Below are positions 20,417 to 36,885 of a DNA stretch of 36,885 nt, in pieces. Made by a program: the position numbers and the translations under genes. The stretch's first letter is position 1; the number at the start of each line of letters is the position of its first letter. The DNA lies in NCBI GenBank assembly GCA_944372455.1, contig CALVZF010000012.1, positions 1 to 36,885 on the forward strand. The letters are read 5' to 3'. The notes below the pieces were generated by a model. That model had not been told where the DNA came from, did not search any database, and worked only from the letters and a program-made list of their open reading frames with translations. Source of the stretch: an uncultured Bacilli bacterium (GTDB lineage Bacteria > Bacillota_I > Bacilli_A > RF39 > UBA660).

Positions 20417-20983
20417 ATGGAATTAATAAACAGTGAACCAACTATTATTTTAATATGTGGAAAAGCTAGACATGGAAAAACTACTACTGGAGAATTTATA
20501 AAAGAATATTATGAAGCTCAAAATAAAAAAGTTACTACTACCTTAATCGCACTATATTTAAAATTATATGTTAAAAATTTCTTTGGTTGGGACGGAAAAG
20601 ATGAGACTAAGCCAAGAGAATTATTACAACAACTTGGTACAGAAGTAATTAGAAAGGGCTTAAATAAAGAAACCTTTTTCATTGATAGAACTATTGAAGA
20701 TATTGAAATTTTAAAACATTTTTTTAATATATTCATAATTGATGATATACGTTTTCCTTTAGAAATAGAAAGTTTAAAAGCTAGTTTTAAAAATGTAATA
20801 ACTTTAAAACTTGAAAGAAATAATTTTGAAAGTGATTTAAATAGTAAACAACTAACACACTCAACAGAAACTGCTTTAGATAATTATCAAAATTATGATT
20901 ACATTATTAAAAATAATGGTACATTAGATGAATTAAAAGAAAAGGTAATTAATGTAATAAAGGATGTGAAGATAGATGGCTAA
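20417..20983 (+). CDS. P-loop kinase, deoxynucleoside monophosphate kinase-like
   Basis: A 188-residue P-loop NTPase with Walker A ICGKARHGKTTTGEFI (residues 14-29) and a later hydrophobic strand ending in Asp (NIFIIDDIRFPLEIESL, about 108-124) as in nucleotide kinases. WDGKDETKPRELLQQLGTEVIR resembles the region around the monophosphate site of phage-type dNMP kinases. Phosphorylation of a (deoxy)nucleotide is the best guess; a precise substrate cannot be named. It starts after AGGAGG 28 bases behind proS and overlaps alaS by 8 bases. Confidence 0.72.
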   Translation: MELINSEPTIILICGKARHGKTTTGEFIKEYYEAQNKKVTTTLIALYLKLYVKNFFGWDGKDETKPRELLQQLGTEVIRKGLNKETFFIDRTIEDIEILKHFFNIFIIDDIRFPLEIESLKASFKNVITLKLERNNFESDLNSKQLTHSTETALDNYQNYDYIIKNNGTLDELKEKVINVIKDVKIDG

Positions 20984-22748
20984 AAATTTAAAAGACTTAT
21001 ATTTAGATTTCTTTGTATCAAAAGGGCATACAAAAATAGAATCTGCTTCTGTAATACCAGAAAATGATCCAACTTGCCTATTTAATACTGCTGGTATGCA
21101 ACCATTAATACCATACTTACTAGGTGAAGCTCATCCAATGGGGAAAAGACTTACTGATGTTCAAAAATGTTTTAGATTAACAGATTTGGATAAAGTGGGA
21201 GATAAAACTCATCATACTTTTTTTGAAATGTTGGGAAATTGGAGTCTAGGTGATTATTTTAAAAAAGATTCTATTGCTTGGAGCTTTGAGTTTTTAACTA
21301 AGGTTTTAAATATTCCTGTAGAAAAATTAGCGGTTACAGTATTTAAAGGGAACGAATTAGTTGAAGCTGATAATGAAAGTGTAGAACACTGGATAGAACA
21401 AGGAATTCCCAAAGAAAGAATTGCTTACCTTGGAGAAAAAGATAATTGGTGGGGAGTAGAATCTGGAGGACCTTGTGGACCTGATACTGAAATTTTCTAT
21501 TTTAGAAGTGATGAAGAAGTCCCAAAAGTATTTGACCCTAAAGATGATAGATGGGTAGAAATTTGGAATAATGTATTTATGCAATACAATAAAACTTCAG
21601 ATGGTAAATTTGAAACTTTAAAACAAAAAAATGTAGATACCGGTATGGGGGTAGAAAGAACCACTGCTATCTTAGAAGGCAAAACAGATAACTATGAAAC
21701 TTCAATTTGGAAAGATGTAATTGAAAAAATTGAAAAATTATCAAATAAAAGTTACCAAAATGAAGAATATGCTAAAGCAATGAGAATTGTAGCAGATCAT
21801 ATACGAGCAGTCGTTATAATTACTGCGGATGACGCTAATATAGTACCATCTAATACTGATCAAGGTTATATTTTAAGAAGATTAATTCGTAGGATGATTA
21901 GATATGCTAAAAAACTAGAAATTGATATAAATAGTGATTTTGATTTAGAACTTGCTAAATTAATTTTTAAAAAATATGGTAAATATTATAAAGAAATTGA
22001 AAGAAATAAAGATAGAATCTTAGAAGTTTTAAAACAAGAAAAAGAAAAATTTGCTAAGACTCTTGAAAAAGGTATTAAAGAATTTAATAAGATTACTGAA
22101 ATATTAAAAAAACAAAATATTAATACAATAAATGGTAAAACTGTTTTTAGACTTTATGATACATTTGGGTTTCCACCTGAAATGACAAAAGAGTTTGCAG
22201 ATGAAATTGGTATGGATTTAGATATGGAAGGATTTCATAAATTTTTTAATGAACATCAAGAAAAATCTAGAAAAGGCGCTACAGAAAAATTTAAGGGTGG
22301 ATTAGCTGATCATTCTTTAATTAATATTAAATATCATACCGCAACTCATTTACTTCACCAAGCACTAAAAGATGTATTGGGTAATGATGTTAATCAAAAA
22401 GGATCTAATATCAATTCAGAAAGATTAAGATTTGATTTCTCATATCCAGCTAAACTTACTGATGAACAAAAGAAAAAAGTAGAAACAATTGTGAACGAAA
22501 AAATAAGTGAAGCATTAGATGTTTCAATGGAAGAAATGAGTGTAGAAGAAGCAAAACAAAGAGGCGCAGTAGGATTATTTGCTAATAAATATGGAGAAAT
22601 TGTAAAAGTTTATTCTATTGGTAATTATTCTAAAGAAATTTGTGGGGGACCTCATGTAAAAAATACTAGTGAATTAGGGGTATTTAAAATAATAAAAGAA
22701 GAAGCAGTAGGCGCTGGAGTAAGAAGAATTAAAGCAACACTAAGCTAA
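20976..22748 (+). CDS. alaS: Alanyl-tRNA synthetase, short form without C-Ala domain
   Basis: Charges tRNA-Ala. The catalytic core has FFVSKGHTKIESASVIP, THHTFFEMLGNWSLGDYFKKDSI, VEIWNNVFMQYN and the GMGVERTTAILEG motif 3; the tRNA-recognition domain follows, then the editing domain with HTATHLLH (H454, H458) and CGGPH (C556, H560). The protein ends right after the editing domain at 590 residues; common bacterial AlaRS has about 870 with a DHHA1-type C-Ala domain. The natural terminus (VRRIKATLS then stop, followed by a terminator) argues that this is a short form, not a frameshift. Short AlaRS forms occur in some reduced lineages. Confidence 0.93.
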   Translation: MAKNLKDLYLDFFVSKGHTKIESASVIPENDPTCLFNTAGMQPLIPYLLGEAHPMGKRLTDVQKCFRLTDLDKVGDKTHHTFFEMLGNWSLGDYFKKDSIAWSFEFLTKVLNIPVEKLAVTVFKGNELVEADNESVEHWIEQGIPKERIAYLGEKDNWWGVESGGPCGPDTEIFYFRSDEEVPKVFDPKDDRWVEIWNNVFMQYNKTSDGKFETLKQKNVDTGMGVERTTAILEGKTDNYETSIWKDVIEKIEKLSNKSYQNEEYAKAMRIVADHIRAVVIITADDANIVPSNTDQGYILRRLIRRMIRYAKKLEIDINSDFDLELAKLIFKKYGKYYKEIERNKDRILEVLKQEKEKFAKTLEKGIKEFNKITEILKKQNINTINGKTVFRLYDTFGFPPEMTKEFADEIGMDLDMEGFHKFFNEHQEKSRKGATEKFKGGLADHSLINIKYHTATHLLHQALKDVLGNDVNQKGSNINSERLRFDFSYPAKLTDEQKKKVETIVNEKISEALDVSMEEMSVEEAKQRGAVGLFANKYGEIVKVYSIGNYSKEICGGPHVKNTSELGVFKIIKEEAVGAGVRRIKATLS

Positions 22749-36134: not shown

Positions 36135-36153
36135 AATAGTGGAAGGTGAGAGT

Positions 36154-36636
36154 ATGAGAAAAGAAATTAAAACTGCCTGCTTAATTACATTATTAGCATT
36201 TGGAGTTACTGGTTGTACAAAAGATGAAACTCTAAAAAAAATTACTTGCACATTAGAAAACAAAAATGTGGTAAGTAATTATACATTAAATTCTACTTAC
36301 AATATTAATTATGTAGGTAAAACTGTTAAAAGTGTAGAAACAGTTGAAAAAGTAACTTCTACTGATGAAAATATAATTAAAACGTTTGAAAGTACATTTA
36401 ATGATACTTATTCTAAATTAGATAAAGAGTATGGTGGATATGTATTTGAAGTAAAAACAGAAAATGATTCAGTTACAAGTACTGTATCTATTGATTATTC
36501 AAAAATGGATTTAGACAAATTAGTTAAAGATCAACCAAGTCTGAAAGATTCAATGAATGAAGATAATGAGTTATTAGTTTCAAGATTACAAGAATCTTAC
36601 GAAGCAATGGGAGCTACTTGTAGTGAGTCAAAATAA
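36154..36636 (+). CDS. Lipoprotein, possibly YehR/DUF1307-like
   Basis: The start at 36154 lies after AAGGTGAG; an in-frame start at 36139 lies upstream of that site and is rejected. The 160-residue protein has a signal peptide with KTACLITLLAFGVTGC, the Cys (about residue 21) being the lipidation site. The mature part is KDETLKKITCTLENKNVV, then beta-strand-like segments, and ends in SRLQESYEAMGATCSESK, which recalls the DUF1307/YehR lipoproteins with their ATC ending. Function unknown. Not homologous in any obvious way to the lipoprotein before it, but both are outer-face proteins with their own terminators. Confidence 0.78.
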   Translation: MRKEIKTACLITLLAFGVTGCTKDETLKKITCTLENKNVVSNYTLNSTYNINYVGKTVKSVETVEKVTSTDENIIKTFESTFNDTYSKLDKEYGGYVFEVKTENDSVTSTVSIDYSKMDLDKLVKDQPSLKDSMNEDNELLVSRLQESYEAMGATCSESK

Positions 36637-36660
36637 TTGCTATTATTACAAATAGTTTAA

Positions 36661-36690
36661 ACAGTCCAAAATTTTTGGATTGTTTTTTTT
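36661..36690 (+). terminator. Terminator of the second lipoprotein gene
   Basis: ACAGTCCAAA (36661-36670) pairs with TTTGGATTGT (36674-36683) with one G-T pair, loop of three, followed by seven Ts. Confidence 0.85.
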
Positions 36691-36750
36691 ATTTTGGTAT
36701 GATAATATAAATAATAGGGATGTATACTGATAGTTAAGTATAAAATATAA

Positions 36751-36766
36751 AGTGTTGGAAAACACT
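36751..36766 (+). other. Small hairpin with GGAA tetraloop upstream of the G-tract promoter
   Basis: AGTGTT (36751-36756) pairs with AACACT (36761-36766) with loop GGAA. No T-run follows, so it is not a terminator. It sits 36 bases before the -35 of the downstream promoter; it could be a regulator site or part of a longer leader from an upstream -10 near 36701. No function can be stated. Confidence 0.4.
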
Positions 36767-36801
36767 AAAATGTAAAGTAACCTTCTGTTGATAGAAAAAT
36801 A

Positions 36802-36830
36802 TTGACCGGGGGGGGGTAATATGATATCTT
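36802..36830 (+). promoter_or_regulatory. Probable phase-variable promoter with nine-G spacer tract
   Basis: TTGACC (36802-36807) is followed by nine Gs (36808-36816), then TAATATGA and TATCTT (36825-36830) with a TG one base upstream (extended -10). The spacer is exactly 17 bases with nine Gs. A homopolymer in a promoter spacer changes length by slippage and switches promoter strength. It is by far the longest G-run in this AT-rich window. Confidence 0.72.
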
Positions 36831-36867
36831 AAATATGTAAAATGTTGATAATGAAAGGAAGTATATT

Positions 36868-36885
36868 ATGGAAGAAGAAAAAAAT
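36868..36885 (+). CDS. Start of a gene running off the window
   Basis: ATG followed by GAA/AAA codons gives MEEEKN, with AAAGGAAG ten bases upstream. Only six codons are inside the window, so nothing can be said of the product except that it lies about 30 bases behind the G-tract promoter. Confidence 0.55.

Follow-up and report, generated by a model that had tools for sequence, protein, structure and literature searches.

The promoter at 36802-36830 of the DNA analyzed here carries a run of nine Gs between its -35 and -10 elements, and this arrangement is, judging from the sequence comparisons described below, very probably a length-variable expression switch for a surface protein gene. The best explanation, which we hold to be probable, is that it belongs to a set of slippage-controlled promoters of surface-protein genes whose spacers contain poly-G. 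The stretch analyzed (the window; 36,885 nucleotides) is an entire contig, C12, of a genome of 1.146 Mb in 49 contigs. Sporulation-type sigma factor genes are present in this genome, and relatives from its family are recorded as uncultured Bacilli from rabbit gut. The features at the end of the window are as follows.

36659-36685, + strand: intrinsic terminator behind the preceding lipoprotein-like gene (36139-36636), separating that gene from the poly-G promoter.
36690-36885, + strand: repeated leader, common to about 12 other places in the genome (BLAST against the own genome, block identities).
36786-36794, + strand: conserved upstream box TGTTGATAG, eight bases 5' of TTGACC and likewise placed ahead of poly-G genes that are unrelated.
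36802-36807, + strand: -35 hexamer TTGACC, read from the sequence; 15 sites in the genome have TTGACC followed by G7 or more.
36808-36816, + strand: nine-G homopolymer within the promoter spacer, the putative slippage element; paralogous copies have G7, G8 or G9.
36822-36830, + strand: extended -10, with TG at 36822-36823, A, and TATCTT at 36825-36830; spacer to the -35 of 17.
36855-36861, + strand: Shine-Dalgarno AAGGAAG, from the sequence.
36868-36885, + strand: start of the MEEEKN gene, which encodes a paralog of the TasA/SipW-type surface proteins and is truncated by the contig end; paralogs with an identical start reach 681 aa (C25).

A sequence-only reading of this DNA had described TTGACC, G9 and an extended -10 (TG-A-TATCTT) with 17-base spacing, and each of these elements was confirmed from the sequence. 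The spacer consists of the nine Gs and TAATATGA, with TAATA lying between the end of the tract at 36816 and the TG. The same reading had placed the gene start at 36868, where an ATG is indeed found and the window ends right after MEEEKN, and had stated that no other G-run exceeds five; the longest of the other G or C runs in the window indeed has five bases. Under a first-order model, only 0.004 runs of nine or more are expected in the window. The match to the promoter consensus (9/12, plus the TG) proves nothing by itself, with nine further 9/12 sites within the same AT-rich 826 bp and 6.5 expected by shuffling. What sets the site apart from chance is its G-run, which 18 further sites carry at the corresponding position of the same module. 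The terminator, a 12-pair stem with a 3-nt loop and a T-rich tail (0.1 expected in shuffles), closes the upstream gene, and the MEEEKN gene thus has its best promoter candidate in the poly-G site. Elsewhere in the window, the first ORF, which is left-truncated, has collagen-like GPTGPQGIT repeats at 1-350 and encodes a further protein of surface type, again at a contig end, and an alanyl-tRNA synthetase-like ORF of 590 aa (20976-22748) apparently lacks the usual C-terminal part.

Nineteen of the 21 G or C runs of at least seven in the genome lie in one promoter module, composed of TGTTRAYAR, about 8 bases, TTGACC, G7-G9, and then TAATATGATATCTT or similar, with TATNNT as the -10. The first-order model predicts 4.7 runs of at least seven genome-wide and 0.76 of at least eight, versus about 16 of the latter found; these counts and the shared placement led us to reject a chance origin of the G-run. 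In 266 kb of the genome's own DNA, TGTTRAYWN followed by TTGAC occurs 16 times and carries a G-run in 15. The remaining two runs, both G7 and outside promoters (L038:5796 and L035:5987), are in or near coding sequence, and the run at L038:5796 is in an apparent coding frame, where frameshift switching may occur. A phage-borne module was rejected, as the module-specific motif is absent from IMG/VR phages and a general version of it occurs there in 5 scattered contigs; a megablast search against plasmids gave no match. Poly-G calls of two-colour chemistry could in principle produce such runs in sequencing or assembly, and several runs do lie near contig ends, including G18 and G22 in one relative (G291) that may be artefacts. 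Most runs, however, are internal with conserved promoter parts on both sides, and they recur in many independent assemblies in a constant orientation to the gene, which refutes an artefact as the general cause and makes it an exceedingly improbable explanation.

The genes behind the module in this genome include about 11 MEEEKN-type (TasA/SipW-type) paralogs, many of them at contig ends, and a small membrane protein in three copies that weakly resembles T4SS pilins (PF18895, below the cut-off). A WXG100-like protein, an ATP-grasp protein, an ABC transporter ATPase and small membrane proteins make up the others. The MEEEKN gene has 20 matches in its own genome, and the contig end, which is also the window end, falls inside the shared MEEEKN leader repeat. 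The full-length paralog at C25 encodes 681 aa that comprise an N-terminal membrane segment, an AYF motif, a dockerin domain and additional sequence at the C-terminus. The AYF motif is typical of SipW-processed TasA-like proteins. The own-genome MEEEKN paralogs score below the PF12389 (camelysin/TasA) cut-off, having in common only the N-terminal membrane segment and the AYF motif, and the own N-terminal region gave no hit in a sequence search of the PDB. Relatives behind the same promoter type exceed the cut-off of 22.5 (39.7 bits for G060/L255 and 37.5 for G082), with Pfam identifying camelysin/TasA plus a C-terminal laminin-G lectin domain and also an N-methylation motif. A structure prediction made without an alignment for an L255 relative had a mean pLDDT of 33.5 and was set aside. 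Across the family, an N-terminal hydrophobic (membrane or signal) segment is present in 63 of 77 non-redundant proteins encoded downstream, versus 5 of 32 window genes; 28 of the 77 have a SipW/TasA-type motif and 4 a prepilin motif. The sequence-only reading had noted that a surface or secreted protein downstream would fit, and the gene is indeed a member of a secreted/surface family whose N-terminus is of the SipW/TasA type. Type VII secretion YukD/EsaB-like and WXG100-like proteins were also seen behind poly-G promoters in three genomes (L181, L216, L036), the YukD/EsaB-like call for L181 being a weak Pfam match.

The MEEEKN copies in this genome have about 150 bp of leader in common by duplication, which would fit G-runs that are neutral leftovers of a module copied along with surface-protein genes and whose length has no effect on expression. 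Block identities show that identity upstream among the copies fades after about 150-170 bp, and the copies are therefore separate loci. The module also stands before the unrelated WXG100-like, ATP-grasp, ABC transporter and T4SS-pilin-like genes, which have different leaders, and 51 genera have the run in this position within flanks that are unrelated. Both observations argue against leftover runs, an explanation that we consider highly improbable.

With one genome per species, tract lengths were compared between paralogs within genomes rather than between alleles or strains. Among the own-genome copies with the same flanks, most have G8 (spacer 16), and G9 occurs at C12 and C41; G9 is thus the minority state in this genome. 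The sequence-only reading had held that a tract invariant in deep error-corrected reads and in all relatives would refute switching, and across paralogs and relatives the tract is not invariant, ranging from G7 to G13. Length varies between near-identical paralogs in seven genomes (G000, G011, G082, G134, G145, G258 and G299), for example G9-G12 in G299 and G10/G13 in G258 with flanks almost identical. Near-identical paralog pairs differ in tract length in 19 of 52 cases and have an indel in the 57-bp flank, which is six times the tract length, in 14 of 52, the 52 pairs not being independent. This lability of the tract among paralogs supports slippage as the likely source of the differences without proving it.

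Three copies in this genome depart from the pure tract. In the MEEEKN paralog at C10 (L104, upstream of C10:39793), AGTGAAAGG replaces the tract and the spacer of 17 is kept; this is possibly a locked-on copy. The T4SS-pilin-like copy at C45 has an interrupted tract, GTAGGGGGG, in which a 9-nt insert likewise keeps the spacer at 17, and the one at C24 has GTGGGGGGG plus two bases, for a spacer of 19. Spacers range from 15 to 21 across sites, with modes at 16 and 19, and promoters lacking G-runs in the same DNA have their spacer peak at 17. The idea of 17 as a functional optimum rests on general knowledge, on this peak and on the copies at C10 and C45. Mean spacers per genus run from 15 to 20.5, in a sample cut at G8 that is missing short-tract states and is biased to long spacers. 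Compensation between the tract and non-tract parts of the spacer was not found across genomes (rho 0.24, p 0.24). Since the genus means differ without such compensation, a single optimum of 17 does not explain all genera.

The promoter type is widespread in the family. Of 291 family genomes, 65 contain TTGA followed by 0-6 bases and G8 or more, and these represent 51 of the 150 genera; a reversed control pattern is far rarer. In a class-wide sample searched with TTGAC, 16 of 56 family genomes were positive (219 overlapping matches, 0 control matches), as were 9 of 339 genomes from other families. Nearly all of 80 family stretches retrieved for inspection, sampled with a cut at G8 or more, have TTGAC, 0-4 bases, G8-G13, a TATAAT-like -10 and an ORF close downstream, and a TATAAT-like -10 accompanies a G7-G13 tract at nearly all of 109 parsed sites. 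The same architecture is scattered in Clostridia, Veillonella, Spirochaetaceae and others in a named scan. One genome (G016; C43, C51, C54, C87 and C93) apparently has a C-strand form, TTGACC then C8 or more, at several loci, and some genera (G134, G299 and G258; L147-L148, L191-L195 and L201-L207) have a C-rich stretch such as CCCCCATTGACTTGGGGG before the G-run, with which it could pair.

A different role for the run was also considered, in which it is a constant component of the promoters of a regulon, with an activator or repressor recognizing the box, TTGAC and the G-run, and with tract length selected for binding or DNA shape. Consistent with this, the upstream box lies at a fixed distance in each genus, and the run is nearly always on the G strand (the C version occurs in 5 of 145 genomes), whereas slippage alone allows either strand. 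Sampled paralogs are mostly of one length in G206, G273 and G060, and the many spacers of 19-20 bp are reminiscent of regulator-dependent promoters. A regulon of this kind fits poorly with the differing lengths of near-identical paralogs in the seven genomes and with the C10 paralog, which has the same box and -10 yet no run; a long pure homopolymer is also intrinsically unstable and unlikely to serve as a recognition sequence. On balance we regard the regulon as an unlikely explanation, and slippage control of the spacer remains the one that we prefer.

The identity of the upstream box was addressed in relation to DnaA. A DnaA box (TTATCCACA, up to one mismatch, either strand) lies within 36 bp upstream of TTGAC at 26 of 90 non-redundant sites, compared to 1.9% by the same criterion in neighbouring stretches, and its distance and strand are constant within each genus. 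DnaA-box-like TTWTCCACA was seen upstream of poly-G promoters at many loci (L149-L157, L166, L170-L172, L187-L190, L220-L226 and others). In each of six genomes examined, such DnaA boxes form a cluster next to dnaA; one of the six is the own genome, where the oriC boxes are TTWTCCACA. The box at 36786-36794 has 2 mismatches to the DnaA box TTWTNCACA and so is not counted as one, which makes a DnaA role at this site at most conjectural. A DnaA box as the general upstream element was rejected, being found in part of the genera only and differing from the own box. It is conceivable, and in our estimation quite improbable, that in a genome-wide poly-G set the DnaA-box-like site couples the switchable surface genes to DnaA and replication, linking expression state with replication-dependent slippage.

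In the slippage mechanism that we propose, the site would act as a sigma-A promoter in which a G homopolymer makes up most of the -35/-10 spacer. Slipped-strand mispairing at replication would alter the number of Gs, the number of Gs would set the spacing (16 bp for G8 and 17 bp for G9 here), and the spacing would in turn set how strongly the surface protein gene at 36868 is transcribed. Independent slippage at about 19 promoters would then yield a population with many surface-protein combinations. Spacers of 16 and 17 are both usable by sigma-A. An extended -10 may soften the effect of length, and for these two reasons the change may perhaps be graded rather than on/off. The position of the tract, its repetition, the type of gene behind it and the length differences between paralogs are direct observations, and we infer slippage in the living population and an effect of length on transcription. 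Taken as features of slippage promoters, those present here are a homopolymer between -35 and -10, a tract beyond what composition predicts, surface or secreted products, and length variation among paralogs.

Promoters with homopolymers in the spacer have been described chiefly in Treponema and in Gram-negative pathogens. The closest known mechanism would appear, by analogy, to be that of tp0126 in Treponema pallidum, in which a poly-G of about 7-11 lies between -35 and -10 and a 17-bp spacing is best (PMC7864442). As with tp0126 and tprE/G/J/L, poly-G promoters here precede several surface-protein genes in one small genome; in contrast, Treponema belongs to an unrelated phylum, the products are outer-membrane proteins, and both length variation and its reporter effect were measured there (PMC7864442). 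In Neisseria meningitidis, a homopolymer between the -10 and -35 of porA, fetA and opc alters sigma-factor binding, and these are likewise surface-protein promoters with the homopolymer inside the spacer (PMC2791445). That organism is a Gram-negative pathogen with single promoters per gene, unlike the common module over about 19 loci found here (PMC2791445). In Bordetella pertussis, one-base changes in the C-stretch of fim2, fim3 and fimX alter transcript level, and a homopolymer with a conserved upstream box again precedes paralogous surface genes (PMC1891110). The Bordetella promoters have a C-stretch and are activator-dependent (fim box), whereas those here have a G-run, a different box and a near-consensus -35 (PMC1891110). 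Among the papers available, a literature search found only the known pathogen systems and no paper joining RF39 with phase variation. New here are the lineage, the scale, and a module common to these promoters, whose conserved upstream box is DnaA-box-like in part of the genera.

The repeated poly-G promoter arrangement explains why assemblies break at surface-protein genes. As gut shotgun reads are plentiful, tract lengths and the states of the surface proteins could be read from existing data. A large uncultured family of Bacilli apparently uses this device wholesale, with as many as dozens of loci in a 1-Mb genome, and the genes that it serves encode surface proteins of the fibre, lectin and pilin types.
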